Source of the DNA: Adineta ricciae
Lineage: Eukaryota; Rotifera; Eurotatoria; Adinetida; Adinetidae
DNA: 64,000 nt
Direction of reading: 5' to 3'
Assembly (NCBI GenBank): GCA_905250025.1
Contig: CAJNOJ010000233.1
Coordinates: 97,205 to 161,204, forward strand
The position numbers were made by a program, and so were the translations under genes. Under the pieces are notes generated by a model that worked only from the letters and a program-made list of their open reading frames with translations, did no database searches and was not told where the DNA came from. Each line of letters opens with the position of its first letter. The stretch's first letter is position 1. Positions 1,340-50,208 of the stretch are shown here, one piece after another.

Positions 1340-4300
1340 TCAAGCTACACAACACTGACATATATTAGAGAGAGTATATTGAACAAACGACTGTAGATTA
1401 CCAACTGCCAGATCTTGAAAACCATCATTATTCAAATCTCCAGCAATGAAGGAAGGAATGGAATATATATCATCTTGTGTACTTAGTATTGTTTGGAGTC
1501 GAAATTCTCCATTTCCATTACCTATTAAGATGATTAAACCAGATGGTGCAATTTGTCCAATGATTATATCAAGGTATCCATCACAATTGAAATCATTAGC
1601 AATAAGTGGAGAACTATCAACATATGATTCCAAGGTAATCTTTACTTTATTACTAAATGATCCATTTACATATCCAAACATAATACCAATAGAGTACATT
1701 GTTGTGTAGGAGAGAGCGACATCAAATACAGAATCACTATTGAAATCAGCAATAACTACATAATATGGATAGATAGAATTGCCTCCACCAGCGAAAGATG
1801 TTATTGGCACTTGGAAATTTCCATTGCCGTATCCAAGAAATAAAGCAATAGTTTTACTCATATGATTCACTACTAGGATATCTACGTGATCATCTCTATT
1901 AAAGTCGACGATGGCAATTGATGTTGGACAACTGTTACGTCCAGTGTAAAGATTTGTTTGTGGCAAAAAACTACCATTACCATAGCCAAGAAATATGGCA
2001 ATATAATGTTCACAATAATTAACAATCGCTACATCGGAATAACTATCATTGTTAAAATCAGTGGCAATCAGGTCGAATGGGTAACTGTTATTTCCAGTTG
2101 AGATTAGATCTGATATTGCAAAACTTCCGTTACCAAAACCGATCATAATACCCATCTGCTGTACATTCGTCTCAATGAAAGCGATGTCTAGCTGTTTGTC
2201 TTGATTGAAATCACTTAAAATAAGCTTATTTAGCAACATTGTGTATCCTATCACGGACATAATCGATGCTCGAAATGTTCCATTACCATTACCAAGTTGT
2301 GTGTTTATTGCATAAGTTGTTGAAGAGAAAAATATGAGATCAAGTTGATTGTCGTTGTTCACGTCACCCATAGCAGATAATTTCAAATTAAGATAACCGG
2401 GCAAATTGGTTCTTTTCACTTGAAATGCAGCTGGACAAGTCGAAACTACGAATGAGAAGAAAGTGGAAAATCACAACCATAGTTTTAAATCATGTACGTC
2501 AAATGCTCCATGGCAGAGAAACACAATCACACGTAGTTTACCTTTATCTTCAATGACATTAAACAAATCTTACCCGAAGCATTCGTACTTGTGCTTAGCA
2601 TTTCCATACTCGTTGTAGAATTGGTTATACTACTGGTTGCTTCGACCATTGTAGGTACTAATAAAGAAATGTTAAAACAAGCGATCTTCATTTGATGATT
2701 CATACGACTCGTTCTCATCGAAATCGTGTCTGATAGGACATGATCAGTAAACTGTTTTACTACAAGAGAATTTCATTTTTGTTTTTTTTATTTCCTAGGC
2801 CACATATCTTTCTAGTAGACATTCACTGACTCATAAAAAGAGCTCACCTGTCGACTGAACCGGATTGTCATTCTTCCGAATACCAAAAATGGAAAATATA
2901 ATCAAGATAGTGATTAGAAACAAGATCGATAGGAGTGCTAAACAAAGTTTGAAAGAATACCGAACTGATGCGTTTGCGACCGTTCTATAATTAGAGAAAG
3001 TGAACGAGTTTGATCAACATGAAAGAGAACATACTGATGAAGTTCAATAGTTGGTAACACTAATGTTACTTGAGCAAGAATTTTTCGTTTTTTTCTCAAC
3101 TGAAGTATTTGAATTATTTGCGGACAAATCCATTTGAGAACGATATTCAATCCTCCTTGAAAGCCAAGTATCAAAGTAATCGTATATAGAAAATTGATCT
3201 TCTGAACAAATGTATAAGAACATGATGAAGGTGAGCATTGTTGAAAATATAATGAATAATTTGGTGTTATTGACCATTGTTCAATGAACAAATTCGAAAT
3301 GAGTTCGTCAACCGTTGTGTTGATTACAAATCGACTTTGATTTAATGGAAGGGGATCACTATGATTTGTAGATTGTTGGAGAAGATCAAGACACGCTCGA
3401 TCGTAGAAACATTCAAGAGTGGATAAACGAAATGATTCACTAGGTATACAACCGATTTTCAAACCTTTGATTGGTACCATTTCCGAAGAATTTCCTTGAA
3501 AAATATATGCTTGAGTTGTACAATTTGGATAAAACGCACAAGAACAGTTGTTATCATAGATAATTGGTTGAGTAATTGCATATGTACTCGAAGGATTATT
3601 CAATGGATATAAATATCGAAAATTTGTTCCATAAGTTGACACAATAGCGTTTCCTTGATTGATATTTTGAATGAAGGATAAAAGTGTTAAAAATATCGTT
3701 GGAGCACTAGATATAACCGTTTGAATTCGTAATTGAAGACGATCATTAAAATGCTGTTCAGAAAACAGTTGATCACCAATGAATAATGAGAAAAGAAACT
3801 GTTGTACAGTAGTGTTTACTGATTGTCTAGAAAGTTCGCATAATCCTTGAAGATATTGCAAATGAGAGGAGAGAAAACGACGATAGTCAATTTGAGAATA
3901 ATCTAATAAATTTCTTCGCCATTCGTCCGAAGTAAATGTACTTGAACAGATCTAAATTGGATTAAACATAACAAATACCATTGTTGATCTTCTCCTTTCT
4001 TACCTGATGAAATGTCAGATTAACATTGACAAATCGATCGTATGTAAATGAAATTAATGAACATGAACATTTCAATCGTTCATTATATTTTTCATAAAGT
4101 TCATTGTAGATATCAAATGATGGTTTATCAAATGTTTTTCTTCCAACATAAGGTTCAATGGTCGTATACGATGTGAAAATAATGATACCGATGGTGAAAA
4201 GAACCATATAGAGACGTGTTGCCCATTGACCTAAACGTTTCACTGTCACGCTGTCGACATCATGTCCAAAATTTCGTGATGAGAACATATTTAGATTGAT

Positions 4301-7300
4301 TATTGTACTGTAGAGTAACATAATTCCATTCCATATGAATATTTTCATTCCGACGGACTCGTTCATTTGTACTATAGCAAAGTCAGAATTCATATTTTCT
4401 TCTTGTGAAAAGTAAATTGTGATTAATAATTACCTGTTTGTTGTTCTTGTCGTCTGTTGGTAATTATTTTCCATAATTTTGTAATAAATTTGACAAGACG
4501 CGGTATAATCAAGCGTAGTGAAACAGACAGACCACCAATCATCGATATCAATGCTACAATCACGTCAATCGACGTATTCTTACGAAGATTTTCCGAATAA
4601 GTGCAATACTTTGGTGCGCATAGTTTATAAAAACTTTCATATGACGAACCTGAATTCCATTGTTCAATCATCATATTTTCTACAACAGTGGAGATTGTTG
4701 TATTCGGAGGATAATTACTTGACATTGGATCATATACAAGTGGATGAACATCAAACCAGGATGGATTTTCCACATTATAAACATACATTTCTTTGATATA
4801 AGTCGTCAGAATTGGAAAACATCCGGAATCTGCATAGAAACATTCAAATGTCGATAATAAAAGAGATTCAGTAGCAGAACAGCCAGTGTATGCTCCAGGC
4901 ACTATATACACAACATTGTAGTCAAAATCACCATGAGAATTTGAATTAACAGTATAGATGGCAACTGGACTTTTACAGTTTGAATTTGTTGCACAAATAC
5001 AATTGATCGATGTGTAATTTGTGTTGACAGTTCTACTCAAACCGATGATTAACTAAAAGGAAAAAACAAAGCTTTCATCTCGCTGTTTTATTTTTATTGA
5101 AAAAAGTCCGTAAGTTTTACCTGTAAAAATTGTTCATCATCTGTTAGAACTGTTACAATATCTGAGATAGAATTTAAATTGTCTTTTGAATCCTGTTGAT
5201 GTATTCCCATTAAAGGTTGATCGACTTGCATAAGAAGTCGTACTGTTTCGACAAGAAGATTAAAGTAACGAATAGTCGATTGTAAAAGCTCATTGACTGT
5301 TGAATTCATTTGTAAAGTGAAATCATTTTCGGACAAGACATTTAAAGTAACAAAATATTGTAAAAGAAAACGATGAATAGCATCCTGAATTGTTTCATTA
5401 GCAAGTTGACAAAGATTTGACAAGAGCTGAGCTTGTGAAAAAGCTTCACTTCGCCAATCAATGGACACTTCATTCAAACTACTTTGATTCAATATTGACA
5501 TCCAACGATATGTGAGAAAATCACTCGTGCAGATCTGATGTAAAACTGGAGAAAATGAAATCAATTTCTGATAAGAAATTGTCATAATTGAACAAGGACA
5601 TTCAAGAGTATCCGAATAGAATTTTTTCAAATGATTATAATCATTTAGTGATGGATTCTGTTTTGTTAATGTTATTATTTGTGTACTTAGTGAATTGAAG
5701 AGTACGAGAATGAGTATTGATCCTAAAACAAATCCTTTTCATTATTGAATTCAAATATTTAGTTGAGATATGTCAATCAATGCTCTAGAAAGACTCTGTA
5801 CGTACCAATTAATAAAGTTAAGTAGACACGTGTCACTATTGTTTGTTGTTTGATACTATTTTCAGTTCGGTCATTGATATTTTTAAATAGATTCAATCGT
5901 TTTATTGGTTTGACAGTTACTCGCAAGTGTGTTGAAAAGTTTCCTACAAAAAACACTGTTTATGAATGAGATAAATTTGATTCGAAATATACTTAGTTGA
6001 ACACTGTGAAATCTTGTGAAGAAAAGGATGAGAAATGGTGAAATTAATCGTAATATAATGATGAGACCACCGTAGAGGCCAATGAAAATGGTAATTGCGT
6101 ACGAGAAATCGAATTGATTGGTCATCGTGTACGTACAAAACTGCGGCGAACATGCATGGAAATATTTGGAATAATTCACCGAGATAATTTGCTTTTCAAT
6201 GAAAACTGAAGATAAATAATCACTAACAGACATGTTTTCATTTTCTTTCAAAATTGAGTTTGTCCAATTGACATCAATCTATCAACGAAAAAAGAGATTT
6301 GAAAATTGAGAAAAAAGTCAATTATTATAGAGACTTGATTCAGATCAGGAAAGTATTTCGACCACAATTCAATACATTCGATATCATACAAACAATCAAG
6401 TGTACTGTGAAGAATACCGGCAAGTGGAGTACATCCTGCAAAAAAACCATTAGCCAATGTCGAATTCGATTCGGGTGGTGTCCAGATTAACCGATATAAT
6501 GTTCCTGGTCCTTTATGTGAGAAGAAACCTGTTTGGCTAAGTGGATTTCCATTAACGCACAAAACAGAATGGTAATCAATTCCATAATAATCATTATAAT
6601 TGTCGCTAAAAACTGTTGGTATTAAGTAGATACTATATCCAGAACCGGAATTGTAAACTGAAATGATTGAATTGGTATTGAGAGCTGAGACAAAAAAGTT
6701 TGCTTGAGTGATAATTTTGAGATAATTCAAAATTGAAATTATCCGAATGGAAATACTGTTAATGAATAATTCAATAGTTGTATTCACCTGGGACTGAACT
6801 TCCCTGTCAGATAGAAGATTTATACTAAGAAACTCGGTGTTACTAAGATCAATTTCATTTTGACTAATTGCATTTTGTATAGATGAACAAAGACTTGACA
6901 GAAGCTGGAACTAAATACAAAAATTTTGATCAGTGAATGAATACGAAAAGATTTTACTTGAGAATTAGCTATTGTTCGAAAATCTGCCGTTCCAAGCGCA
7001 CTTGCATTTGAAAAGTACAACGAATGTATCCAACGTTCAGTGACAAATACACTGGAACAAATTGGATACAATTGATTGGTACTATTCACGAAAGTATAAT
7101 AAGGAATTGCAACTGTCGAACACGGACATGTCAGTTTTTGGTGATGTTCAAGATAAAGTTCATCTAAGATACCAGGACGAGTAATATCCGAAATAATAAT
7201 AGTTTTGGACTGTTGTTTGATCAAAGTGATATAAAAGAGAACGTAGATCGATACTAGACGAAACAATAAAGACGATCTTTTGCTATGGGTTATAGTTTTA

Positions 7301-7499
7301 ACAATTCTAGTCAGCGTGTTTATTCGTTGGACTTACTTGTGAGAAGAAGAACGTATAACCACGTGGTATATTTCTGCTGACGGAGAGTGATTGTTTGATT
7401 ATTTGATTCTTCGTCGGTATATTCATCATTATCTGGTATGAAAAGATTGTAATTGTATAGAGAATTATACAACCAGCGTAATAGAACTTTCAGATTCAT
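1340..7499 (-). CDS. Three-module, seven-span membrane protein with C-terminal FG-GAP propeller (copy A)
   Basis: Hand splicing with introns of about 50 nt joins one long coding path from ATG 7499 to the stop at 1340, roughly 1,750-1,800 residues. It has a cytosolic N-terminus (MNLKVLLRWLYNSL), then three repeats of one module. Each module is a membrane span, a Y/L-x-CPCS motif (CSCS in module 3) followed by a FHQIC-type motif, a Cys-rich ectodomain with STLECFYD-like and EQW..Y..C-P-CTY motifs, and a second span with a GLYGGL-like turn. Modules join through open exons: module 1 to 2 across an intron at about 5942-5990, and 2 to 3 across an intron at about 4381-4434. A seventh span (FKLCLALLSILFLITILI) precedes a Ser/Thr linker and seven DxNxDxxxDL calcium-type repeats, a seven-bladed propeller. 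With an even number of spans before it, the propeller should be extracellular. I do not recognise the module; DEG/ENaC-like topology is superficial only. Confidence 0.7.
1400..2445 (-). other. FG-GAP/VCBS seven-repeat propeller region
   Basis: This is the last exon of the preceding gene, starting at 2445 after an ATTCGTAG acceptor. Seven repeats are visible: GDVNNDNQLDL, SDFNQDKQLDI, TDFNNDSYSDV, VDFNRDDHVDI, ADFNSDSVFDV, NDFNCDGYLDI and GDLNNDGFQDL. They are about 45-50 residues apart, each with GYGNGSF-like blade motifs. The acidic DxNxD loops are the calcium-binding loops known from integrin alpha propellers, so ligand binding or adhesion is the likely role. The chain ends shortly after repeat seven in a cysteine cluster (CQCC). 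Confidence 0.9.
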
Positions 7500-8459
7500 G
7501 TTCAGCTGGAAGATGAAGGAAAAACTAAATAACTAATTGTTTGTGGTCGGCTGCGCGTGAACAATTAAATGAAAATCCAATTTCTTTTAGAAGTTCTTTT
7601 CGAGTATCGTTTATGAAAGATGCATGCACTGCTTTGTTTCTACTTGTGTACATTTCAATTTCTAATGAAAGTAAAAAGGAAGAGTAGAATTTCGATTTTA
7701 CTTTACTGTTTCTTTTTCGCGGAATCAACAAGGCCGATTCAAGTTTTCTGTTTAATTTTGTGTTCAAAATGGAGGGAGTCGACATCTGTCTTCTCCACGA
7801 TCATCTCTATTCATATCCTAATGAGAAGCAACAATGCGGGTCTGTTAGTGCAAAATTACTGCGAACTAATAATGTGTTAAAAAGTGTTCAGTCATGACAT
7901 ACTACTGTTATGATTGAAAAATAAATTATTTTCTTTTTTAAAAAAAGCATTGTGTAGTTTTGAATATTTTGATGAAATTACATCCGTTTTAACTGTTTAA
8001 TTATGAACATTACCAGCAAACACAAGTGCCAACTAGACACAGATAAACTCAACTTATACTCTATGATCCCAACCGAAAGAAGGGACTTGATTTTCGCATA
8101 CAAATTTTTCGAATTTTGAAGCTGGAGTTTTAAAACTCGAAGAAAATGTTTAATATTTGGATCGAGTTAACGATTTCTACACTACTCCCCTCTCGTTAGG
8201 AAGAAGTTATTTTAGTTGTTGGTTTTTTTTTTCGAAGAATCACAACGATGAATAATCTTACGAAATATTACGATGTTTTTTCCGAGTAAAGTCTTGTCAC
8301 AGATTTTTATCAAGAAGATAAAAATATCATAAACTGTTGTCAAGAAATTGTGCTTGGAAATACTATATCGATGAATCGTCCGTGTTTATCTAAGATAAGA
8401 TGTCTACATATAAATGCAAAATAATAATACCCAGTATTTATTTCAAGTAGGGAACAAGT
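7500..8459. other. intergenic segment, partly duplicated at 41095-41640
   Basis: No gene is firmly supported. A 42-codon plus-strand frame beginning MEGVDICLLHDHLYS (7771-7899) is conserved in the copy at 41101-41228, but so is the surrounding non-coding sequence, so conservation does not prove coding. An opposite-strand frame of 86 codons (7525-7785) may be 5' untranslated sequence of the membrane-protein gene. Homology to copy B runs to about 8190, where copy B breaks. Confidence 0.4.
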
Positions 8460-11400
8460 ATGCTTCGAATACCGTTTATTCTCATTTTGATCCTTCTTAA
8501 CATCATAATTGAACGGCATAGTAGTGAAGCCATTCAATCGCTTGATGATTTTTTTCCCTTTGGCCCGGAAGCAGATGACATCCGAATGATACGTAATGAT
8601 GATAAAAGTCTTGGTCCTATACCATTACCTTACATATTCCCGTATTTCGATAACAATCATCGTCAAATCTATCAAGCAAATAATGGTCTTTTTTCTTTCT
8701 TGGGTGGAATATCTACTTACAATCCAATTGAATTCCCAATTGGTAACAATCAACGTTTAATTACCCCGTTCTGGTCTGACATTGACACACGTGGAGTCAC
8801 GAGTAATATCTCTGAAAATGCTGTTTATTATCAAGTTCATGTTAGAAACGCGAACAACTCGAGTAATGTGACAGCATTTGTATTTGACAAGGCTACACGC
8901 TTTGTTCGTCAATATTTTCCCCGAGAACAAATATTTGAACCAATGATGGTCATTACCGGTACATGGTATCGAGTTGGATATTGTTGCACACATATAGACC
9001 GTCTTAATACTTTTCAAATGGCATTAATTACTGACCAATCACGTAGTTTTGCATTCTTTTTCTACAATGATTTACAATGGGCTAGCCCATCTTCAAATGG
9101 ACCATATGCTCAAGCAGGTTTTAATGCTGGTGATGGTGTTGTATCAAAAATGCTTAAATATTCTCGGACAGGGAATATTACATTACTTGTTAATGAAAGT
9201 AATGTTAATGTGCCTGGCCTATTTGCTTTTCGCATAGATACAACAGATATTGAAGCAGGTGGATGTAACGAGCACGAGAGTCTTACTCATTTACCCGTGC
9301 GTGGTCCACAAATAGGTGACACAACTATAAATTTACAGGGGCCATGTTTTGATTCAAATACAACGGAAGTTCTGTGCCGTTTTGGTGAATTCGGAACTGT
9401 CAATGGTATGATTTTGAATGAATTTCGAGCTGTTTGTGTTTCACCACTTGCAACATACCCTGGTAATGTTGAATTAACTGTATCTCTTGATGGAGGCAAT
9501 ACATTCGTATCTTCTGGAACTTTCACATACATGCCCATGACAAACGATGTTCTTATCAATGAAGAAATCATCCTCCGTCAGAATGGTACTGCTACACAAG
9601 CTGTTAGTTGGGGAGATACAATTGAACTTGAATGGGTGATGTCTGAAGCATTATTCGCTGGAATTGATTCAGATGCTTTGATTGATATTGAATATGAATC
9701 ATTGATACCAGACGAAGAAAGTACACGTCGACGACAGAAAGATTCAAATGCAGATGTTGATATTAAAATCGATAAAGTTATAACATTGGCTTCAAATATT
9801 CGTCCACAAGTCGGTCGTCAAACAATACAAATTGATCTAGCAGAAATTGCGCGAAAACAGCCTCGTATTATTCCTCTAGCAGGTGTTGCAGTTGGTGCTA
9901 TTCGCGTTGGTATATTTGTATATCGAGCTTACAAAATTTACCGTGCAGTTAAAACTGCGATCAAAATCATAAAAGCAACCGCAGAAGTGACATGTGACAT
10001 TTGGAGTTCTACTCAGCCGAATCCTTCGACATGGAATCAAAATCTTCCGCCGTGTCCGAACACTCTTCGGCAAGCTCAGGTTGCACGAGCTCAATATGTA
10101 CCTGATCCCGCATGCAAGGATGGAGGATTTCTTCCTTCATTTATTCCCGTTGTTGGTAATTGTTGGTTTCATCAAGGACGACCACAGTTTCAAGAAGACA
10201 ATGCGGCAGCGTGTTTTCGCTCAGTTCAATCTAATCAACACGGCGCTGGTGGACAATGTTGTTACAATACCGCCGGACAAATTATCACTCGAGGAACTGG
10301 GGCTGGCAGCGATGATCGTTATCACAGTGATAAAACATTCTGGAAACACCAGTTTCATGATGTCGCCACGTTTGTTGCTTGCTGTAAATTACAATCGAAT
10401 CCGGAGCAATGCGATAAGTATCTTCAACATCGACCTTCACGACCAGGAAGTGATACTATGGGTCAATTTGGTGGTACTTGGGGTGATCCACATTTTTTAA
10501 CACTTGATGGAACTGCTTATACATTTAATGGTTACGGAGAATACATATATCTGGTAAGTAGAAGTTCGATGGATAGATTACATATCTGATGAAATATATT
10601 TTTATAGGCAGTTCCTTTGCAACAAACGATCTCGTATAATTTCAATACTACTTTTCGATTCGAATCACAAATTCGTACTACACCGATAGGATCTGGGGCA
10701 GCTACTGCAACAGCGATCAAAGCTTTTGCTGTTAGAATTGGTATGCAGAAACTTGCCATCACAGTATCTCGAAGAAATCAACTTCTTATTCTTCTGAATA
10801 ATGATGAGCTGATATTTGAAACTGATCAAGATACATCGACGAACTTAGATCTCATTACTTTCCGTTTCGAAGAGTTTTTCATTTCGAAAAATCGGACAAA
10901 TAATCAACTTACACTGGTATGTGCACAAGGTGTTAGTATTCAGATCACACCAGTCTATGTAGCCACAGCGTCAACTATGGTTCTGAATATCGGCGCAGCA
11001 ATTAGTGGAGAATTAAAAGGTGAATGGACATTAGGTTTAATTGGTTCTTACGATGGTAATCCTTTAAATGATTTACGAGATCGTTCTGGTGTCGTTATTG
11101 GCACTGTTGATGAACTTTCGTCACAAGAAATACATGAAGTAAGTTTTTATGCACACCAGTTTTGTTTTCTTCTAAGAAGAATTCTTCATTTTCAGCAATT
11201 TGGCATGACATGGGCGATTGACCCTACTCGATCTCTTTTCTTTTACGAATCAGGTGATAATGCTTCGTTTTATTCATTTCAAAATCAAAATTACCGACCA
11301 ATGTTCAATGCTCTTATCGTCGATTCTGACAACGCAAATGCTCGTGATGCTTGTGAGATTCCTCACAATGCAACTGATTCATCGCAATGGTCTACTGTTC

Positions 11401-11864
11401 AACGCACTTGTTACTATGATATTGTTGTTACCGGTGATATTGATTTCGGCCGTACTTCACGTCAAGCAGCAGAACAACAAATAGAACAACGTGAAGCAAT
11501 GCGTAATCCTCCAAAATTCAATTCTGGCCTATCTCTCACTCGATCAGTACAAATCGGTGAAGAAGTACGTCTTTCTTTTCGAGCCACTAGTGAATTCAGT
11601 TCGAGTATTAGCTACAAACTCCTTCGCGCGCCAAATGATGCATCTCTTAACGCAATGACAGGTGAATTTCAATGGAAAGTTTCGAAGAAACTTGAAACCA
11701 CGAATCAAATTCCTGTTCAAGTTAGCGCACAAGATACAGTTTTCAATTTAACATCAACTTATGAAGTTCTACTTCAGATTCAAGAAAAGAGTAAGGCTCT
11801 TTCACGTACAAGTTGTATGTTTTTACTTATTTTTACATTCGTTTGCCGTGTAATGCTTTCATAA
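8460..11864 (+). CDS. Mesh-like secreted or surface protein: NIDO, IPT, AMOP, VWD, cadherin-like domain
   Basis: Three exons (8460-10553, 10608-11138, 11196-11864) give about 1,097 residues. A signal peptide (about residues 1-23) is followed by a NIDO domain (about 50-265; FWSDIDTRG and ANNGLFSF motifs). Next come an IPT/TIG-like fold (about 275-365), an AMOP-like Cys-rich region (about 525-640; GGQCCYN), and a VWD domain opening with GGTWGDPHFLTLDGTAYTFNG. An FGMTWAI..SLFFY segment typical after VWD follows, then a CADG/Ig-like domain near the end (PPKFNSGLS to YEVLLQI) and a hydrophobic tail (CMFLLIFTFVCRVML) that may be a GPI signal or membrane anchor. The family includes insect Mesh and vertebrate MUC4/SUSD2, extracellular proteins of epithelial junctions or mucosal surfaces. 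Here a cadherin-like domain stands where Mesh has sushi repeats. Intron 2 is 57 nt without stops, so retention would also stay in frame. The gene is absent from copy B. Confidence 0.88.
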
Positions 11865-15104: not shown

Positions 15105-17918
15105 ATAACTTTCCTCATCTCACTCAAATCGGTAGCAAAACATGGATATGCTCATCTTCTTACATGAAATGCTTTTGATTCTCGATCATCAGATCCGACA
15201 ATCACACGCTGTGAATTGTTAACAACTCGTTTGTATCTCATTCTTCTGCTTATTTGTGTCGGTGTTTTAACAGCTTATACATCATTCAGTGTGCGATCCA
15301 AAAGCGAATTCGTTCTCACTCCAACTTATTCTCAATATCAGAAACTTCAACGGCAAACGAGTCTCAGTGCCATGTGGAAATTCATTCGATCATTTTGTCA
15401 AAATGCTCACCGAATCATCGAAGCAAATGCACTACTAACCGCATCAGGAAACAACTATGTTCTTCGCGTGGTGTATGATAATCAATCTACTGATCCAAAC
15501 CCGGATTTTTATGCCGCGATACATCGAAATCAATTTATACAAAACAATTCGAAGAAAGCCTGTGTCTGTGAGAATGATCGTTCGTGTCCACTTCCTGCTA
15601 ATATTTATTTGTTCGACATCACACATTGATCTGTAGTTTATGACATGAACACAATACCATTCAATGAAACTTTGCTTGGCCTAGTTGTTACAATTGTTTG
15701 CCATTTCAAATGACATTTCGATCAACATTGGAATACTTTTATCACCAATCATATCTTGACTTTCATCTTATCAACAAAAGATCAATATTTCCATTCTAAA
15801 TTCATCTCAGTCAAGTCAATTTGACCCAACAACAACAATCAAATCACTTTTCAGTGAACTTTTTCTTGAAGAAATCCACAATGAAACAAATTATGAAGAT
15901 TATTACTTGACATGTTTTCTCAAAACATGTTCCTATTCATTCAATCATCGATTTAATTGGATCCACGCTTTGTCAACCCTGTTCGGACTTGAGGGTGGCA
16001 TATCAGTCGTTTTACGTGTTATTACTCCCTATCTCATTCTTTTGTTTCTCTTCTTATACAAAGTGTTTTTTTGCAAAGAATCGACCAATGAGACAACCAT
16101 CAGGTAGGAGAATTTCAACAACAAGAAGGATCGACGATCGGCTTATCATTTTAGGTGAAAATTTCCCTAATCGATTCAAACGAATTTTAAAGAAGATAAA
16201 AGACAAAATTGTAAGTTTAAACATCTACACAAAATATTCTCATGACGAAACATGTGTTCGTCATGGTCATCTACTCATCTGTATTAATTGAAACTATCAC
16301 TGAACAAGTTGTTCATCCAACACTAGACGAAGAATATCCGTTAACATTGATGTGTCCTTGTAGTCAAATGCCTATTCCGTACGAAGATTTTGTTCAAGTC
16401 TGGTGGTATCAAACTTTATCATTCCCGAATAATCCAACGGCAGACGTTCGTTTTATTTAGCTATCTTCATCATACTTGCAAACATTGGCAAGTTTTTGTG
16501 AATTAGTCAATGAAACAGTGAAGAACGGAGTTGAACAATATCTCTCCACTACATTTGTCAATGGTTTTACTTTATCCAATGATTCATTTCATGCATAAAT
16601 GAGTTCATTGATCAACTCATTCATCGAACATCGTTGACACAACTGTTTCTTCAGAGTGGTCAATACGCGAATCGTTTGCCGTTAAGTACATATATTGCAC
16701 TAGTAAAATCTTATGTCGATTCTGACTTACAAGCTGTAAATGTATGCGCAATGCCCTCATACGTCAAGAAATATATCGATGGTACGAAATGTTTTTGTGC
16801 ACTTGATTCCAGTTGTAATTTAGAAGATTGGGTGTTGACAGCAGCTTCACTCAAGTCCGTGTCTTGGGGACTTCCTGGAATAATTGGAGGTTATACTATG
16901 GTTGATACTGTGTTCAGATCATCGTTTGTATCTTGGTTAAATGATGACTTGAACTCTACGTTGACACGAGTCTTGAAGGATGCGGGTGCAGCTGTACCTC
17001 GTTTCCCAAGAATACTTAGCTCAACAGTTCCGAATCGATATGCCACAACAGCATCAGCTGAGTCGATTTTGAATCATCTGATGATTGAAGATTGGAATGT
17101 GACTTATTCCTACGAGAATTATTATTTTAAATGTTTTTGACAGCGAATCAAATGATACCAGAACTATTCATCACGAACGAATAACTACACAAGTGTATCT
17201 ATTTCTCTTATTGTTCCCGTTATATTCCATAATACTTTATTCAATGTTTTCCAACGGAACTATGAACATCACGGTCTACAATCCCATGGAAAGTGATTAC
17301 AAAAAGTTAATGACGTTGTATTCAACGTCATTTCAATGTCCTTGTAATAATATTTCAGTTCAATATAAGAGTTTTCTTCGTGTTGATGCCATCTTTCATG
17401 AGATTTGTTCGAGTGACTTCGTCCAGGCAGAATGGCGTGATTATTTGTTTGATCAAGGCAATTGGCTGGATCATTATCGAGTGGATGTACGTTCACGTCG
17501 AGGAATCTATTTTACATTTCTTTCCACTTTATGACAATTATCAAAGACCACAGTTCAACATGCGATTGATCAATTTCTTAATGAAACCTTTATCAATACT
17601 CAACTGATTCCTCGATCGGAGTTTCAGCTTCGAATTAACATCAGCAATTTTATCTTACAATCTCAGCAAATAACAACAGCACAGTTTTCGCGCAGTGTAG
17701 ATCTACTGCACAATGTGATGGATGGCAATGGTTTAATCTCTTCCTACCTTCTGAATTATAAGTGGTCGATCGATTTAAACAGAACTTACACGACAATTCC
17801 AATTAGTTCAGTGACGATGAAAACTGGATGTTCGTGTGGAACACGAACTGACTGTATTGAATCAGGAGGAATATATTATGATAGGACGAATAGTCAAGTA
17901 TTCGCAACACCCGGATGA
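15105..17918 (+). pseudogene. Decayed relative of the CPCS two-span module protein (copy A)
   Basis: Aligned with copy B at 41877, the start codon is ATA (15105-15107) instead of ATG, and a Trp codon is TGA (15165-15167). The first span is still readable (LYLILLLICVGVLTAYTSF). The CPC segment is missing: 172 bp present in copy B (42129-42300) are gone at 15356, and about 157 bp more are gone at 15397-15409. Further pieces follow out of frame: a second span (LFGLEGGISVVLRVITPYL, about 15985-16041), a module start with LMCPCSQMPIPYEDFV (16300-16400), an ectodomain part (16634-17140), and another span plus FQCPCNNISVQYKSFL (17193-17534). Multiple frameshifts mean it cannot encode the original protein. 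It is a relic of a multi-module gene like that at 1340-7499 on the other strand. Confidence 0.75.
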
Positions 17919-22700: not shown

Positions 22701-24717
22701 ATAAACTCAATGGACCGTTCAATTTTTCAGACATTTCTTCTTTTATGAATTGATTGATTTTTAATTCGTAGTTTTCATTACCCTTAGGCAGCGATCCCGG
22801 ACTATTTTACAGATATATCTTGGAAAATAAAGAAAAGAAAAGAAGTGACCCTCATGATAAAAGCCTTTTCACAACATATTTGCTTAATTTTCAGGTGAGG
22901 TTGTAAGTATAGATGAAAGGAAAATGATCAAATTTACACTGGAACATTCACCCTCCTTTGATATGGCTGTCACAATCATAAGAATGAAGTTATTTCGGGC
23001 ACTCACTGTCAACACTATTAATACTAAATTCAGCACGAATAAAATTAGTTTGAAATAGAGCAATAAAAGTGGCGGCGATCATGAAATGTACTAAAAGGAA
23101 TATTAAAAAGTTCTGTGACTTCAATGTTAGCTAGATATGAACCAAATCCCATTCCAGTCAAATTCAAATTCACGCTTTCTTGAATTTCATTTCAATACGA
23201 ATTAATAAGAAATGGGAATGAATGGGAACAAACATGTTTTGCACAGTTCTCTGAATTTCTTGATGACAGGACTCAAATACGACCAAGTCTTCGTTAGAAT
23301 TCGATTAACTTTTCCAGACGTGTATTGGCGATTCTTTGTTATTTAAAAACGATGAAGATTTCATTGAATCTGACTGGAATTGGATTTGCTGCATACAAAA
23401 TCTCAGCTTCAGCGAAAACATCAAGCTCGATAAATACCATTCTTTGAAAAAAGAAAGATATACGATTACTTTTTTTGCAGCAATGGCAAACCTTTGGTAC
23501 CAGTCTCTGTTCGTATTTTTTTACTCTCGCAGTAGCTGCAATGTAGGAAAAGCTGCAAGTGTAAATATTTATAGAAACCTAAATCTGACACATAACTCAC
23601 TTCAGGTTGTGTACCAGTCTTTAGTTCTTTACTGACCACGTGCCATGATAGAATCCTTAAATATGTGGATATTTCAAAAAGAGCCTATCAGGGGTTAGTA
23701 AGAGTTACTGTAGTATCAACAGCGTATTACTTACCAGAGCAGCGTTGATGTTATCTCAAATAAATGGAGTAATTGTCTGAATTTTTTGTCATATTTTAGA
23801 TGTTTCACATGAAAATAAAATATCTATGGAAGAACAATTGTTGTTTGTTTTTCCGTCAAAATATTTAGATCGCCGTCTATTTCTAATGTGAATCAATTGT
23901 TACCATGCGACTGTGCGAAAATACGATTTAGATTGCATGAAGCAGATAGCTATAAACAACAGTATCTACACAAGTCTTTGTTAGTTCTTTGTAAATAGTG
24001 CTTTGATCGGTGTTGAGTATACTACCGAGAGGATTGTCTCACAAAAGAAGACGGAAGGCTCTACAGTATAGATTTTACGTCACTTACCAATCCCCACTTC
24101 GTTTAATCTTCTATGCGTGCTTATTTCTTAGGACTTCAACTATTCTCTTGACTTCATGGCTCCTTCGTGTTTTAGAGCCTTCCTCTCTCATATCAGTAAC
24201 GTCTTTTCTCAAGATCTCTGGAATTCTTGCTTTATTCTTTATTAGTCCAAGATGTAAATATTTTCTAAATTCTAATATAAATGATAAAATCTAACCATAT
24301 TGATCATTTGAAGAACTTTCGAAGTCAATCGAAGTTGGTTTAAAGCATTCTTGTCGTAAATGCTCATTTCCTTTCTCTCCTATTATACTACTTATATCAG
24401 CTTAAATTGTGTGTTCTATAATTGGATTTACCACATCCGGACAATAATTCTATTCGTTTGGATGCGATGCAAATTTGGACTTAGCAAATGTCTAACGCTA
24501 TACTTATTGTATTGGCAAACACACAAGTAGGAATTCTTGCTAAAGAATCCGATTACTCATTCGCATGTTGGAAATTTTCAATATATCGTCCGAATTGAAT
24601 GACTCATTTGTGTTTTTTCCTTTTCTACGTCTCAGTCGCAATTTCATCGACTCGAAGTAAGTCACATGAAGAGATATAAACAAATGAAAGTTTTCGTTAA
24701 ACATCGAATAGTTTCGA
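22701..24717. other. Long intergenic region, right part duplicated
   Basis: No gene is supported in about 2 kb. The 99-codon frame at 23336-23635 lacks features. From about 23990 to 24717 the sequence matches 43940-44657, so the upstream region of F-box 2 is part of the duplicated block; the stretch 22701-23980 is not in copy B. Confidence 0.45.
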
Positions 24718-26628
24718 ATGGATCAAATCAAACGTCAACGATGTGATAGTTTCAACGACAATAAAAGACAGAAAACCGATGATTGGTATGTTGAAAAGAA
24801 TTAATCTTCCATGAGAATTTCTTTTTTTATTATTTCTATGATTTAGTTGTGTTACACGATTTGAAGATCTCGCGAACGAAATTATCTATGAAATTTTTGA
24901 TTATCTTGATTCTTATCATGTTCACAAAGCATTTTCCAGTCTCAATTATCGATTTCAATCTTTTCTCATAGAATCAAATCTTCCACTTCGAATCAACATT
25001 CCTCTCATGTCTCCATCAACATTTCATCGTTACAATAATGATATTATTCAACCCAACATTCAACGAATTCATTCCATTCACGTTTCACATTATTTTATGT
25101 ATGATGAACAAACACTTCCATTAACACAAATGACATTCCTTCGATCACTTGTCATCGAAAACATTGAGTCTGAATGCTTACAAAATCTGGCCAATCAATT
25201 AATTTCGTTATCACATTTATCTTCATTGAGTATTATGATTATCGATACAGTTAAAGATAAAATTGGTATTTATGAACAAATCTTTCGTTTACCTTCATTA
25301 CGTTATTTCAAATTATTATTGGAAAATCCAAGGTATCAATCATGTGATGTATCATCGATTCACCTGAACGAACAAAGTTCGATCGAACATTTAGTTATTG
25401 ATCATCAAATCAAATATATCCAGCTCAATAGTTTTCTTTCATATGTCCCTCGACTACGTCATCTTTCTTTACAATTATCATCAGATTATGAATATTCACT
25501 AATCAATGTACCATGTCATGTTCTAGACAGTTTAACACATCTATCTCTGAAATCAACTTACCAACTGAGATTCGAGACATTGGAACGTATTCTTATCAAT
25601 CATTTTTCTCTTGTTGAGGTTTTACGTCTCTCTGTATCGCTAACGACTTTAGATGCGAACAAATGGAAACAATTGATATCGACACATCTATCAAAATTAC
25701 GTATTTTTGATGTCAGGTTTAAATTTTATTCATATAATAATGCAAAAGATGTAGCGTATGAAGAGCAAGTTACTCAATTTCAATCATCGTTTTGGATTGA
25801 ACGTCAATGGTTTTTTCATTCTGAAATAATTCGACTTCGATACCCAGAGCAAAAACTTTTCTTTTCAGTGAATGCATATCGGTAAATACTAATGACGAGG
25901 TTTTTCACAAGGTTTAAGAGTTATGTTTCATAACGTATTTTAGAAAAAAAGATTATAGAATATATAAACAATCCAATGAAGAAAGTTTCACAGATGAAAT
26001 TCGAACAATGTTCTACTCAGTTGACCATGTTGAAATTGGAGATGAAAGAGCAATGAATCAGTCTATGTCTTACTTCCCGAATGCTAATAAACTTACTTTC
26101 GAAGATCAATTTTCAAGCGCTGGCTATTTGCTACTTTCAGTCGGTGTCAATCGTATTTTATCTTTACAACGAATAAAAACTTTAGTGATCAAATGTCATC
26201 ATTTTTCTCTGATGAAAATGATTGACTTATTATCATGTATTCCTAATCTTCAAATATTAGCATTTCAAACAATGCCTCTTTACAAAGAAGAAGGAAAATC
26301 CATTGAACAAAACGACAAATTTCAATTATTGTCAGAGACAAATTCCATCACGAATATCAGTTTTAAAGAACGATCTACGCCAGACAAAATCGAATTACTT
26401 ATAAAGTTATTTCCTCGTATTCAGTATCTTGCAATGAATACATATATGAAAGATATGAAAGTTATATTACAACTTTTAGTAAAGCAAAATACCCCTGATC
26501 TACTATTAACATGTTTTACATATGCAGGTGAAGTGTATTTTCGACATCTGACTGGCTTAATTCAATCTAAAGTATTATCTACTGATTACAAAGTAACACA
26601 TGCTGGAAGAAAATTATACTTATGGTAA
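24718..26628 (+). CDS. F-box protein 2 (copy A)
   Basis: Exons 24718-24785, 24847-25881 and 25944-26628 give 595 residues. The N-terminus MDQIKRQRCDSFND is followed by the F-box-like motif RFEDLANEIIYEIFDYLDSY, and then leucine-rich repeats (LRSLVIENIE, LSHLSSLSIMIID, LRHLSLQLS). It is predicted to be a substrate-recognition subunit of an SCF ubiquitin ligase. All frames are open, and the partner in copy B is the same length. It differs from F-box 1 throughout but keeps identical intron phases. Confidence 0.87.
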
Positions 26629-26778
26629 TAATGTATTGATCTCCTGACAGACAGTAAAGTTTTGTTTTGTTTTCGTGTACGTGCTAACAACTTTGTGTTT
26701 CAGACTTCCGCTTTTTTGTATATCTTTGATTCAGATAATCTGCATTAACCATGAAAAGGATCGATTTTCTATTGTACG

Positions 26779-27475
26779 TCATACTATCAGAGTTTTTCCT
26801 CTATATTCATAGAACGCAACTGATTTAATAGTAACTCCATCTGTTGACAAAAGTTGCGTGGGTCGACCAACCAATCCGACGTCGCCTAAACTTGTATTGT
26901 AAGCTGGATTTTGTCTTTGAATGCATTTCGGTGCTTGTAAATCGAAATAAGAACAGAGATTCGAATTGAAATTATCATAAGTCAAACAAATCTGATGAAG
27001 TAATCCATCGTAGAATAAATTGGAATGTGAAGATTATCATAATCTTCATATCTTCCCAAAACATTCTCAAGTGTTTCATTATGAATCGCCATTGCAAAAA
27101 ACGAAATCTTTTCATCAATAAATTTCTTCGCAGGAAACAAAACACAAACACTACGATTTTGATTTCCATTGATCAACGTATTCGTATTAGCATACATAAA
27201 ATTTGTTCCTTGATCTTCCGACGGCATCTTCCAAAATGGATCGCAGGTCAAATCTTGAAAAAAAGCCAAGATTCTATGCAAAACAAAGTTTCTATAAGCA
27301 CTCACGTTCGGTTTCACAAGATAACTTCACCGTTTGCAGCACGGCGAGTTCGACGAGAATTGGATTTTTCGCATTGATAACTCGGGAGATAAAACAAGTT
27401 CGAATCAAAATCGATGGAGCAAAAAGGAGAAAAACAATGAAGAATCTCTATCCGATGTTTCAAACGCATTTGCAA
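26779..27475 (-). pseudogene. Decayed small secreted-protein gene (copy A)
   Basis: The copy B partner begins with a clear signal peptide (MRFFVVFLLFTPLVLVQS) followed by RRTRRAA, a dibasic processing-like site. In copy A the equivalent ATG is followed, within the signal peptide, by two extra bases, so signal and mature parts are in different frames. Downstream pieces KMPSEDQGTNFMYANTN and ICLTYDNFNSNLCSYFDL to LIV (stop at 26779) are in separate frames without convincing splice sites. I infer a formerly secreted protein that is broken in both copies; the function is unknown. Confidence 0.45.
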
Positions 27476-27657
27476 AACGTTCTTTCTTTTATACGTCAGC
27501 AGATTTTTCTTCAAACACCGACAATATTTAAATCTGATGAAAGCATTCATTCATTTAGATCAACAGAGCCTTTCCGTTTGAATAATATCATAAGTTTATT
27601 TTTTGATAAAAATCTCTTTTTATCTGTACATTATTAGAAAAACCTTCGTTAAATCGC

Positions 27658-27981
27658 TTAATAATATCCATAACCACCTCCATAACCACCATTATAACCT
27701 CCACCGAAACCTCCGCCATAGGGCTGATGGCCTCCAAATCCACCACCCATTCCAAAGTTTCCACCCATTCCACCGCCCATTCCAAATCCACCATTTGGAT
27801 TTCCGCCGAACATATTGTCAACAATCATTCCCATTGGACCTGAAACAAAGAAATTGCATAAAAAAAAGAAGAATTTTCCGTCGTAGACTTTACTGTTCAA
27901 TCCACCAGGTACGAGACTGTTGATGGCAAAATCCGAGGCTAATTCTCCAAAGCCACCAGCGAAGGGATTACTTCCGTACAT
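27658..27981 (-). CDS. Small glycine-rich protein (copy A)
   Basis: Two exons (27981-27894 and 27839-27658, intron 54 nt) give 89 residues. The first exon, MYGSNPFAGGFGELASDF, leads to PMGMIVDNMFGGNPNGGFG. The C-terminus is GFGM/GGG/GGY repeats ending GGGYGYY. Such Gly/Tyr-rich tails occur in structural cuticle, shell or RNA-associated proteins. There is no signal peptide, and the function is unknown. The Gly blocks are permuted compared with copy B. Confidence 0.7.
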   Translation of the reverse strand: MYGSNPFAGGFGELASDFAINSLVPGGLNSKVYDGKFFFFLCNFFVSGPMGMIVDNMFGGNPNGGFGMGGGMGGNFGMGGGFGGHQPYGGGFGGGYNGGYGGGYGYY

Positions 27982-28666
27982 ATTGTATTGAAAACGAATA
28001 AGCAACCTTTGGTATTTAGAAATAAAAATGAGACTGAAAACAAGATAATATTGTTCTGTTATTTATACATTTTGTTCTTCATGGACAAAAAAAATATAAT
28101 CACTCGAGCATAAAAATGCGTCATTGTTTCGTATTATCTTTTCATCATTCATTATTTCGTTTATTCTTCATACCACGTTTTGGTACAATCAACTCGATTT
28201 TTTTCTACATACTTTTATCATAAAAGTAGCCACGTCATTAGTTTTACTCGAAAATACCGAAGATTATTCACATTTGAAATCACGCTCAGTCTTAAAATAC
28301 TCAGTTTTTCATCAACAAAATCACTGTTTACTTGATAACTTCGCCAAGTCCATACATCTCATCTCTTTCTCTCCAACTAAAAATAGTCTAAACACACAAC
28401 CTCCAAGTGAAGGATCACGTCTTGGTTTGAAAAACTAACCGTTTCGCCACTCATCTATTGTTCTTTCACGAACGCTCCAATATGTGTAATAGCAATTAAT
28501 AAAAATGATTTCATATAAGATTTCACGCCCAGTACGTGTAGAATCTTTGATTGTGGATCGATTTCTATCATGTGAAGGTCATGATGATGAAGATGAGATT
28601 GAATTGTGAACGTGATGGTTGAGCGGAGAATAAATGTGATTTGAGGAATTTGATCATTTGAAGAAA
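27982..28666. promoter_or_regulatory. Region between divergent Gly-rich and SLC43-like genes
   Basis: About 680 bp lie between two divergent starts and are conserved with 47689-48406. No gene is supported; T-rich and short low-complexity tracts are present. By position it should carry both promoters. Confidence 0.35.
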
Positions 28667-30335: not shown

Positions 30336-30465
30336 TCGGTACTCTTTCTGACAAGACGAGGAAAAGACATGTTCGATTTTATCAACATATTTCCGTGCGA
30401 TACGAAACAAAACATAACAAAGAAAAGAAAGTCGAATATATTTCTTGTATAAACAATATCCATTA

Positions 30466-31847: not shown

Positions 31848-31929
31848 AGTCGAAATGAATCTGACGGTATACTGATGAAAATGATTTATTTCGAAGATAG
31901 GTAAACTAGCAGAAGAACATCTGACTATA

Positions 31930-32793: not shown

Positions 32794-32839
32794 TATCTGA
32801 AAGATATTTTAAAAAATAACGAACGTGTCGCATTTATTT

Positions 32840-33817: not shown

Positions 33818-34140
33818 CTTTCAATGTATTAATAGACGAAGAACGCTGAAAATATGAATATGAAATCGATCCACTTCACTATAACTCAAAGTTTTTATCT
33901 TTCCAACATACCTTATTGATTTTTTTTCTCGTCCTTTCAGTTGCAAGCGACAAATGCGTAATAATAAACTCGCATATCACACAACATACATATATATTTG
34001 ATTCTATTGCCGTCTGCACGGCGTCCTCTTTCTTCTTCTATGTGAAAGAATGTTTTGTCGTTCTTATCTGCACATGTGTACCGAGTGGACTACACGTCAG
34101 TGGTTAGTTTCTCAGTGAAATAAAATTACGAATACTTTCT
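33818..34140 (-). promoter_or_regulatory. Upstream block of GTPase 2, first of three copies
   Basis: This roughly 320-bp stretch is nearly identical to 53528-53865 and to 63725-64000. It contains a T-rich segment, a conserved element including TGTGTACCGAGTGGACTAC, and a poly-T stretch at its left-strand end. Position immediately upstream of GTPase 2 in both complete copies suggests promoter or 5' untranslated sequence. Confidence 0.4.
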
Positions 34141-34266
34141 TTTTTTTTCGTTCTTGTGTTTCTTTATACGTCAGACACAGACGACAACGCATTCAATGTA
34201 GGAAAAAACCCAACGACTATCATTTCAGGTAATAGTAAGAGACAACTCTACAAGTTATTTCGAAAA

Positions 34267-36317: not shown

Positions 36318-39300
36318 TCAAGCTACACAACACTGACATATATTAGAGAGAGTATATTGAACAAACGACTGTAGATTACCAACTACCAGATCTTGAAAAC
36401 CATCATTATTCAAATCTCCAGCAATGAAGGAAGGAATAGAATATATATCATCTTGTGTACTTAGTATTATTTGTAGTCGAAATTCTCCATTTCCATTACC
36501 TATTAAGATGATTAAACCAGATGGTGAAATTTGTCCAATGATTATATCAAGATATCCATCACAGTTGAAATCATTAGCAATAAGTGGAGAATTATCAGTA
36601 TATGATTCCAAGGTAATCTTTACTTTAGTACTAAATGATCCATTTACATATCCAAACATAATACCAATAGAGTACATTGATGTGTAAGAGAGAGCGACAT
36701 CAAATACAGAATCACTATTGAAATCAGCAATAACTACATAATATGGATAGATAGAATTGCCACCACCAGCGAAAGATGTTATTGGCACTTGGAAACTTCC
36801 ATTGCCGTAACCAAGAAATAAAGCAATAGTTTTACTCATATGATTTACTACTAGGATATCTACGTGATCATCTCTATTAAAGTCGACGATGGCAATTGAT
36901 GTTGGACAACTGTTATGACCAGTGTAAAGATTTGTTTGTGACAAAAAACTGCCATTACCATAGCCAAGAAATATGGCAATATAATGTTCACAATAATTAA
37001 CAATGGCCAGATCGGAATAACTATCATTGTTAAAATCAGTGGCAATCAAGTCGAATGGGTAACTATTATTTCCAGTTGAGATTAGATCTGATATTGCAAA
37101 ACTTCCGTTACCAAAACCAATCATGATACCCATCTGCTGTACATTCGTCTCAATGAAAGCGATGTCTAGCTGTTTGTCTTGATTGAAATCACTTAAAATA
37201 AGCTTATTTAGCAACATTGTGTATCCTATAACGGACATAATCGATGCTCGAAATGTTCCATTACCATTACCAAGTTGTGTGTTTATCGTATAAGTTGTTG
37301 AAGAGAAAAATATGAGATCGAGTTGATTGTCGTTGTTCACGTCACCCATAGCAGATAATTTCAAATTAAGATAACCAGGTAAATTCGTTCTTATCACTTG
37401 AAATTCAGCTGGACAAGTCGACACTACGAATGAGAAGAAAGTGATAAATTACAACCATAGTTTAAAATCATGTACGTCAAATGCTCCATAGCAGAGAAAC
37501 ACAATCACATGTAGTTTAACTTTATCTTCAATGACATTAAACAAAAATCTTACCCGAAGCATTCGTATTTGTGCTTAGCATTTCCATACTCGTTGTAGAA
37601 TTTGTTATACTACTGATTGTTTCGACCATTGTAGGAACTAATAAAGAAATGATAAAAAACAAGCGATTTTCATTTGATGATCAGTAAACTGTTTTACTAC
37701 GAGAAAATTTCATTTTCGATTTTAATTTCGTAAGCCATATATCTTTCTAGTAGACATTCAATAATTCATAAAAAGAACTCACCTGTCGATTGAACCGGAT
37801 TGTCATCCTTCTGAATACCAAAAATGGAAAATATAATCAAAATAGTGATTAGAAACAAGATCGATAGAAGTGCTAAACAAAGTTTGAAAGAATATCGAAC
37901 TGATGCGTTTGCGACCGTTCTAATTAGAGAAAATGAATGAGTTTGATAAACATGAAAGAGAACATACTGATGAAGTTCAATAGTTGGTAACACTAATGTT
38001 ACTTGAGCAAGAATCTTTCGTTTTTTTCTAAACTGAAGTATTTGAATTATTTGTGGACAAATCCATTTGAGAACAATATTCAATCCTCCTTGAAAGCCAA
38101 GTATCAAAGTAATCGTATATAGAAAATTGATCTTCTGAACAAATGTATATGAACATGATGAAGGTGAGCATTGTTGAAAATATAATGAATAATTTGGTGT
38201 TATTGACCATTGTTCAATGAACAAATTCGAAATAAGTTCGTCAACTGTTGTGTTGATTACAAATCGACTTTGATTTAATGGAAGAGAATCACTATGATTT
38301 GTAGATTGTTGGAGAAGATCAAAACATGTTCGATCGTAGAAACATTCAAGAGTGGATAAACGAAATGATTCACTAGGTATACAACCGATTTTCAAACCTT
38401 TTATTGGTATCGTTACCGAAGAATTTCTTTGAAAAATATATGCTTGAGTTGTACAATTTGAATAAAACGCACAAGAACAATTGTTATCATAGATAATTGG
38501 TTGAGTAATTGCGTATGTGTTCGAAGGATTATTCAATGGATATAAATATCGAAAATTTGTTCCATAAGTTGACACAATAGCGTTTCCTTGATTAATATTT
38601 CGAATGAAGGATAAAAGTGTTAAAAATATCGTTGGAGCACTAGATATAACCGTTTGAATTCGTAATTGAAGACGATCATTAAAATGCTGTTCAGAAAACA
38701 GTTGATCACCAATGAATAATGAGAAAAGAAACTGTTGTACAGTAGTGTTTACTGATTGTCTAGAAAGTTCGCATAATCCTTGAAGATATTGCAAATGAGA
38801 AGAGAGAAAACGACGATAGTCAATTTGAGCATAATCTAATAAATTTCTTTGCCATTCGTTCGAAGTAAATGTACTTGAACAGATCTAAATTGGATTAAAC
38901 ATAACAAATACCATTGTTGATCTTCTCATTTCTTACCTGATGAAATGTTAGATTAATATTGACAAATCGATCGTATGTAAATGAAATTAATGAACATGAG
39001 CATTTCAATCGTTCATCATATTTTTCATAAAGTTTATTGTAGATATCAAATGATGGTTTATCAAATGTTTTTCTTCCAACATAAGGTTTAATGGTCGTAT
39101 ACGATGTGAAAATAATGATACCGATGGTGAAAAGAACCATATAGAGACGTGTTGCCCATTGACCTAAACGTTTTACTGTCACTCTATCAACGTCATGTCC
39201 AAAATTTCGTGATGAGAATATATTTAGATTGATTATTGTACTGTATAATAAAATAATTCTATTCCATATGAATATTTTCATTCCGACGGACTCGTTCATT

Positions 39301-41093
39301 TGTACTATACAAAGTCAGAATTCATATTTTCTCCTCGTGAGAAGTAAATTGTGATTAATAATTACCTGTTTGTTGTTCTTGTCGTCTGTTGGTAATTATT
39401 TTCCATAATTTTGTAATAAATTTGACAAGACGCGGTATAATCAAGCGTAGTGAAACAGACAGACCACCAATCATCGATATCAATGCTACAATCACGTCAA
39501 TCGACGTATTCTTACGAAGATTTTCCGAATAAGTGCAATACTTTGGTGCGCATAATTTATAAAAACTTTCATATGACGAACTTGAATTCCATTGTTCAAT
39601 CATCATATTTTCTACAATAGTGGAGATTGTTGTACTCGGAGGATAATTACTTGACATTGGATCATATACCAGTGGATGAACATCAAACCAGGATGGATTT
39701 TCCACATTATAAACATACATTTCTTTGATATAAGTCATCACACTTGGAAAACATTCGGAATCTGCATAGAAACATTCAAATGTCGATAATAAAAGAGATT
39801 CAGTAGCAGAACATCCTGTGTATGCTCCAGGTACTATATACACAATATTATAGTCAAAATAACCATGAGAATTAAAATTAACAGTATAGATGGCAACTGG
39901 ACTTTTACAGTTTGAATTTGTTGCACAAATACAATTGATCGATGTGTAATTTGTATCGAGAGTTGTACTCAAACCGATGGTTAACTAAAAGGAAAAAATA
40001 AAGCTTTCATCTCGCTGTTTTGTTTTTATCGAAAAAGCCCGTAAGTTATATACAGAAATGACATACCTGTAAAAATTGCTCATCATCTGTTAGAATTGTT
40101 ACAATATTTGAGATAGAATCTAAATTGTCTTTTGAATCCTGTTGATGAATTCCCATTAAAGGCTGATCGACTTGCATAAGAAGCCGTACTGTTCCGACAA
40201 GAAGATTAAAGTAAAGAATAGTCGATTGTAAAAGTTCATTGACTGTTGAATTCATTTGTAAAGTGAAATCATTTTCGGACAAGATATTTAAAGTAACAAA
40301 ATATTGTAACAGAAAACGATGAATAGCATCCTGAATTGTTTCATTAGCAAGTTGACAAAGATTTGACAAAAGCTGAGCTTGTGAAAAAGCTTCACTTCGC
40401 CAATCAATGGACACTTCATTCAAACTACTTTGATTCAATATTGACATCCAACGATATGTGAGAAAATCACTCCTGCAGATCTGATGTAAAACTGGAGAAA
40501 ATGAAATAAATTTCTGATAAGGTATTGTCATAATTGAACAAGGACATTCAAGAGTATCCGAATAGAATTTTTTCAACTGATTATAATCATTTAGTGATGA
40601 ATTCTGTTTTGTTAATGTTATTATTTGTGTACTTAGTGAATTGAAGAGTACGAGAATGAGTATTGATCCTAAAACAAATCCTTTCTATTATTGAATTCAA
40701 ATATTTAGTTCAGATATGTCAATCTATGCTCTAGAAAGACTCTTTACGTACCAATTAATAAAGTTAAGTAGACACGTGTCACCATTGTTTGTTGTTTGAT
40801 ACTATTTTCAGTTCGATCATTGATATTTTTAAATAGATTCAATCGTTTTATTGGTTTGACAGCTACTCGCAAGTGTGTTGAAAAGTTTCCTTCCAAAAAC
40901 ACTGTTTATGAATGAGATAAATTTTATTCGAGATATACTTAGTTGAAAAATGTGAAATCTTGTGAAGAAAAGGATGAGAAATGGAGAAATTAATCGTAAT
41001 ATAATGATGAGACCACCGTAGAGACCAATGAAAATGGTAATTGCGTACGAGAAATCGAATTTATTGGTCATCGTGTACGTGCAAAACTGCGGC
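36318..41093 (-). CDS. Multi-module membrane protein with FG-GAP propeller, 5'-truncated (copy B)
   Basis: This is the same gene as 1340-7499, with about eleven amino-acid differences over the propeller. Modules 2 and 3, the seventh span (FKLCLALLSILFLITILI) and all seven FG-GAP repeats are present and open. An intron at about 37925-37972 is 48 nt here against 50 nt in copy A. The sequence stops inside module 1, at CTYT just before its second span, because of the N at 41094. The first span, most of the first ectodomain and the start codon are missing. No internal stops were seen in the spliced frame, so the gene may be intact in the real genome. Confidence 0.75.
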
Positions 41094-46565: not shown

Positions 46566-46799
46566 TAATGTATTGGTCTCCTGGCAGACAGTAAAGTTTT
46601 GTTTTGTTTTCATGTACGTCTTAACAACTTTGTGTTTCGGACTTCCGCTTCTTTTTGTATATCTTTGATTCAGATAATTTGCATTAACCGTGAAAAGGAT
46701 CGATTTTCCGTTATACATCATACTGTCAGAACTTTTCTCTATATTCATAGAACGGAACTGATTTAATAGTAACTCCGTCTGTTGACAAAAGTTGATTGA

Positions 46800-47116: not shown

Positions 47117-47365
47117 TTTGATGTTTCAAACGCATTTACAAAATGTTCTTTCTTTTGTACCCAACAGATTATTGTTCAAACACAGATAATGTTTATAACT
47201 GATAAAAAATATTGTTCATTTGGATCGACAGAAACTTTCCCTTAATTACCATCTCGCGGTACAATGAAAACAACAGATTTTATCTTTGAATAATGTCATA
47301 AATTTATTTTTTGATAAAAATCTCTTTTTATCTGTACATTATTAAAAAAACCTTCGTTAAATCGC

Positions 47366-50078: not shown

Positions 50079-50208
50079 TCGGTACTCTTTCTGACAAAAC
50101 GAGGAAAAGACATGTTCGATCTTATCAACATATTTCCGTGCGATACGAAACAAAACATAACAAAAAAAGAAAAGTCGAATATATTTCTTGTATAAACAAC
50201 ATCCAGTA

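Follow-up and report, generated by a model that had tools for sequence, protein, structure and literature searches.

The window, as we call the whole stretch of 64,000 nucleotides of Adineta ricciae DNA analysed here, carries on its minus strand a gene of 12 exons in which a single frame runs from an ATG at 7499 to a TGA at 1340 through 11 GT-AG introns of 47–190 nt; in the bdelloids studied, introns are mostly 30–100 bp (PMC5916493). Intron size, G+C and gene make-up accord with a bdelloid source. The predicted product has 1763 amino acids and comprises three two-span modules, a seventh span, a linker and an FG-GAP propeller (Table 1). This length takes in a revised start of exon 11, which comparison with a second copy in the window places most likely at 2657 rather than at 2759 as in the first model, because the indels of copy 2 (45 and 2 bases) are then intronic; the second copy is likewise free of internal stops under the revision. 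A first-pass annotation of this DNA had claimed that GT-AG splicing keeps the frame open across the module boundaries, and the frame is indeed intact from 7499 to 1340; the boundaries that it placed by eye coincide with the two phase 1 introns of Table 1, and every element that it claimed, from the three two-span modules to the seventh span and the propeller, is present in the gene.

Table 1. Features of the three-module gene (7499–1340) and of its second copy in the window
Feature	Position	Strand	Details
Module 1	5993..7499	-	exons 7499-7337, 7253-6958, 6910-6335, 6278-5993; aa 1-440; predicted spans ~47-68, ~404-427
Intron between modules 1 and 2	5944..5992	-	49 nt, phase 1, GT-AG
Module 2	4434..5943	-	exons 5943-5806, 5722-5121, 5052-4434; aa 441-893; predicted spans ~473-495, ~850-873
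Intron between modules 2 and 3	4372..4433	-	62 nt, phase 1, GT-AG
Module 3	3035..4371	-	exons 4371-4004, 3951-3035; aa 894-1321; predicted spans ~944-967, ~1266-1290
Exon 10, seventh span	2848..2984	-	predicted span ~aa 1336-1357
Exon 11 (revised), Ser/Thr-rich linker	2574..2657	-	copy-2 indels lie upstream of 2657
Exon 12, FG-GAP propeller and stop	1340..2445	-	aa 1396-1763; seven Ca2+-loop motifs; Pfam FG-GAP_3
Second gene copy	36318..41093	-	~96% identical; end of module 1, modules 2 and 3, seventh span, linker, propeller

At a single N (41094) the second copy breaks off, short of the remaining part of module 1, apparently because an assembly gap has been collapsed there; N also occurs at 36111 and 53866–53874. 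Over 1322 codons the two copies differ by a dN of 0.0231 and a dS of 0.0811 (dN/dS about 0.28), a disparity that points to purifying selection. Jumbled module pieces, two C-terminal ones flanking one N-terminal, lie at 42862–43551 (plus strand), and the segments 15381–16102 and 42481–43203 share a 92% identical stretch; the pieces at 42862–43551 and 15381–16102 are probably relics of the module family. A segment of about 10 kb that carries an AIG1-like GTPase gene occurs twice in direct orientation (24150–34148 and 44043–53862; 91–94% identical over most of its length). Two further plus-strand features are a NIDO-TIG-AMOP protein with weak VWD and mucin-4 C8 matches (8451–11864), located upstream of the 7499–1340 gene and divergent from it, and a single open frame with an ADP-ribosyltransferase-like domain (ART, 3.2e-07) followed by TPR repeats (57178–58881).

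The three modules of the window gene are mutually 25–27% identical over about 400 amino acids (E 1.2e-39 to 3.5e-28), a likeness far above chance, and each follows the same plan, in which two spans enclose the ectodomain and are themselves flanked by basic cytosolic sequence at the start and by a basic tail. Stretches assigned to the cytosol contain 8.7–20% K+R and no more than one cysteine, whereas the module ectodomains contain 4.2–6.7% K+R and 10, 12 and 12 cysteines in modules 1, 2 and 3, respectively; the charge and cysteine pattern of each module is thus that of two spans with a Cys-rich ectodomain and both ends inside. The spans were assigned manually, on hydropathy together with the alignment of the modules, and four more hydropathy peaks (near aa 202, 900, 1092 and 1685; 1.44–1.73) were left out of the count. 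The peak near aa 1092 scores 1.65, the same as the accepted span at 1270, and the region that matches it is modelled as a long ectodomain helix in the predicted structure of a relative. With spans set in this way, the proposed seven-span topology agrees with the distribution of charge and cysteines.

The window gene is, by its sequence, a member of a large gene family. In two protein searches of this genome, at least 91 and at least 98 places were scored out of 1357 and 1384 first-look candidates, respectively; both totals are lower bounds, and the lists overlap in part. Sequence matching module 2 lies upstream on the same strand in 29 of the best 30 relatives of module 3 (the exception is L010), a set that includes the window's own two copies (L001 and L002) and some partial matches.

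That all three modules belong to one gene and one chain is well supported, as the first-pass annotation had it, by the in-frame introns, by the start of module 2 and by uninterrupted fusions elsewhere in the genome. In the window, no ATG in frame occurs from the stop upstream of module 2 to the first span of that module, which therefore cannot begin alone with an ATG in its own exon. In 16 of 73 loci (L001–L073, some of which overlap, e.g., L037, L071 and L072, so that counts are of loci and not of genes) one module is joined to the next by a single frame without interruption, and in two such a frame extends through three modules: L055, where the locus ends within the first module, and L049, where the third ends inside the second span (TM2). 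Altogether, 18 of 115 module starts, in these 16 loci, share a frame with the end of the preceding module, a further 30 lack an ATG in frame, and the other 67, which possess one, are uninformative on separate starts. The junction of modules 2 and 3 is read through in one open frame in 7 of the 30 close relatives. No frame holding more than three modules was found; among the matches listed (at least 99), six lie in frames of 1050–1400 amino acids and none in a longer one. A spliced leader is trans-spliced to more than half of the transcripts in two bdelloid species (PMC1925144), and the modules could accordingly be read as tandem single-module genes that are co-transcribed and separated by trans-splicing, with no fusion protein in the window. 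The in-frame ATG that module 3 of the window has a few bases past its acceptor and the 67 module starts with such an ATG would suit this arrangement. The uninterrupted frames, however, including those at the junction of modules 2 and 3 in close relatives, refute it for the loci that have them and render it unlikely for the window gene, where the absence of an in-frame ATG from module 2 and the in-frame, phase 1 introns that join the modules also count against it; we regard it as very improbable indeed.

The C-terminal part of the product, which follows the seven predicted spans, is an FG-GAP propeller with seven DxNxDxxxD-type loops, matched by Pfam FG-GAP_3 (6.9e-31) and FG-GAP (1.6e-14), both above the cut-off; the predicted topology would place it outside the cell. 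That FG-GAP proteins are expanded in Adineta vaga has been published (PMC3846280); the available text names the repeat motifs only and does not describe the three-module membrane part. In 27 of the 30 close relatives, module 3 is followed downstream by a propeller in the same orientation; L011 and L013 have none within 1.5 kb, and in L029 it is on the other strand. None of the 30 loci L044–L073 showed a same-strand propeller, and two carry one on the opposite strand; this absence is soft, given that flanks there are at most 1.5 kb and many stop short of the gene end. The propeller was seen only in the clade of the window gene. The propeller could be a separate neighbouring gene, with the module gene stopping after module 3. 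In favour of this are the lack, in the fetched loci, of any open frame that contains both a module and a propeller and the lack of same-strand propellers in L044–L073; against it stand the same position of the propeller in 27 of the 30 relatives, the single open frame that carries module 3 through the seventh span in copy 2 (ORF 37766–38884) and the lack of an in-frame Met ahead of the first Ca2+ loop in the propeller exon, which together leave a separate gene very improbable.

The triplication of the modules is old in the window subfamily and in one other, as judged from a tree of 66 rows comprising the three window modules and 63 of 117 assembled modules, picked for clear order in their locus. 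Modules of the window family form clades by position, M1 (100/99; 2 rows), M2 (100/100; 6) and M3 (100/100; 13, one of unassigned position), as do those of a second subfamily, in clades a (100/98; 8 rows), b (100/100; 9) and c (100/99; 8). Because the tree groups modules by position, the triplications of these two best-sampled subfamilies are taken to be old; the deep forks between positional clades are weak, so that one triplication or several are both compatible with the tree. The pattern is not general: L061 has two modules that group with each other, and the modules of L058, L059 and L063 lie apart from the clades defined by position. The three neighbouring modules of L072 (C553) are most closely related to one another and form a young tandem array, in contrast to the position-specific triples, which are old.

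Among five segments of the module that were compared, the second span is the best conserved. In an alignment of 50 modules, twelve ectodomain cysteines are kept in 47–50 rows and, if they pair, would form six disulphides per ectodomain. TM2 follows the pattern T-x3-G-x2-GGL-x3-L-x4-P (G388 in 50 rows, L389 in 46, G387 and L393 in 44, P398 in 42, G384 in 40 and T380 in 36) and has the lowest mean entropy, 1.96 bits, of five segments (TM1, 2.17; ectodomain, 2.35); T380, G384 and G388 probably share one helix face, because they are spaced four residues apart. The window modules align with this family and its signature of twelve ectodomain cysteines and GGL-x3-L in TM2; the ectodomains of modules 2 and 3 have 12 cysteines and that of module 1 has 10. 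In L044–L049 (C262, C55, C447) the profile match of the third module stops at 389–395, within TM2, and the last span of that module may differ in this subfamily.

The first-pass annotation knew of no family in which such repeated modules end in FG-GAP repeats, and searches of Pfam and PDB bear this out. The families that Pfam reported for 18 modules were each hit by a single member (best E 0.026), none significantly, and PDB sequences likewise gave no significant match. Two AlphaFold2 models of a module, one of L005 with 15 rows (pLDDT 81) and a confident one with 50 rows (pLDDT 91.8, pTM 0.76), found nothing closer than E 3.0 and 4.5 with Foldseek against PDB, E 3.8 against viral models and low Z values (at most 6.0) with VIA-align. 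The profile search and the structure prediction brought no clear match to a known channel or receptor family; these negatives from predicted models do not prove a new fold. The literature searched yielded no publication on the three-module membrane part.

Close architectural parallels are two families of trimeric channels, DEG/ENaC (ASC) and P2X, of which the modules might be divergent members concatenated three to a chain. The general plan would be the same, with two spans, a large Cys-rich ectodomain and a strand beside each span; in the second model TM1 continues straight into a strand and another strand continues into TM2. When the module profile was run by hmmsearch with filters off against three ASC sequences of the same genome, one gave a weak in-register match at TM1 (3.4 bits, E 0.0035) and the other two gave E 0.14 and 3. 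Against such kinship, hhalign of the module profile with three ASC proteins of this genome returned a probability of 0.2%, and none of the 18 modules matched ASC or P2X in Pfam at E up to 10, findings on which the module is assigned to neither family by sequence. The genome does have genes of both families, with 90 exon matches for DEG/ENaC and 46 for P2X; compared by eye, none of these overlaps the module places among the matches listed. Foldseek matched neither family, and neither Foldseek nor VIA-align detected a palm-finger-thumb fold, an absence that is not exclusionary. We consider membership improbable. The module protein may nevertheless work, by analogy, like a trimeric two-span channel, yet it is not classed as one.

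Either an adhesion or a channel function is possible from sequence. We give an even chance to a seven-span plasma-membrane protein that acts as a built-in heterotrimeric receptor or channel with a Ca2+-dependent propeller head, its trimer, pore and ligand being those we infer as follows. The three modules fused in one chain would pack around a pseudo-threefold axis, with the TM2 helices inside and the TM1 helices outside; the ectodomains would do the sensing, and in the window's clade the propeller would stand outside the cell as a head that binds ligand in a Ca2+-dependent way, an event that could be relayed to the six-helix core to gate a pore or to alter cytosolic contacts. Trimer and pore are proposed by analogy only, because no known channel was matched by fold. 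That missing match, together with a propeller bearing seven Ca2+ loops and the precedent of LINKIN, a single-span type I FG-GAP protein of cell adhesion (PMC4275582), also accords with an adhesion or chemosensory receptor that has no pore, in which the modules serve only to hold the ectodomains in place and apart and the propeller attaches to matrix or cells in the manner of alpha-integrins and LINKIN. Such a receptor is possible, if on the unlikely side, since two subfamilies retain the three modules as separate old lineages and no other of the five segments compared is as conserved as TM2, both beyond what a mere anchor needs. The fuller version of the built-in heterotrimer is more tentative, and we think it unlikely as a whole: a single-chain ligand-gated channel of previously undescribed fold, with three ancient, non-interchangeable subunits, possibly hundreds of paralogues and a propeller grafted on in one clade. 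The expansion of the family suggests recognition of varied ligands, whether chemosensory, adhesive or immune. If the built-in heterotrimer is correct, this would be a large animal membrane-protein family for which we found no Pfam model or solved relative, which arose by internal triplication and was kept position by position in two subfamilies; it would also supply a candidate mechanism, open to test, by which these animals could use an expanded receptor set to sense or recognise what surrounds them.

Alpha-integrins are single-span chains with the propeller at the N end. The window protein shares with them and with LINKIN an FG-GAP propeller with seven Ca2+ motifs, but both of these are single-span, whereas here the propeller stands C-terminally after the last of seven predicted spans, and the protein is not placed among the alpha-integrins. 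DEG/ENaC channels (ASC, PF00858) have two spans per unit, a large Cys-rich ectodomain and cytosolic ends, and three units make one channel; the modules resemble them in these features of the single unit but are without significant sequence or fold match to them, are fused three per chain and carry GGL-L-P in TM2. P2X receptors (PF00864) are also trimeric, with two spans and a disulphide-rich ectodomain; the modules have a like plan, but none of the 18 examined matched P2X in Pfam, and the genome has P2X genes elsewhere. In Nav/Cav, two-pore and K2P channels, subunits have been fused in one chain by internal duplication to build tetrameric pores. The window protein is like these in the fusion of its units through internal duplication and unlike them in that their pores come from other folds and its units number three; a built-in trimer, if true, would join these known cases of one-chain fusion of channel subunits.
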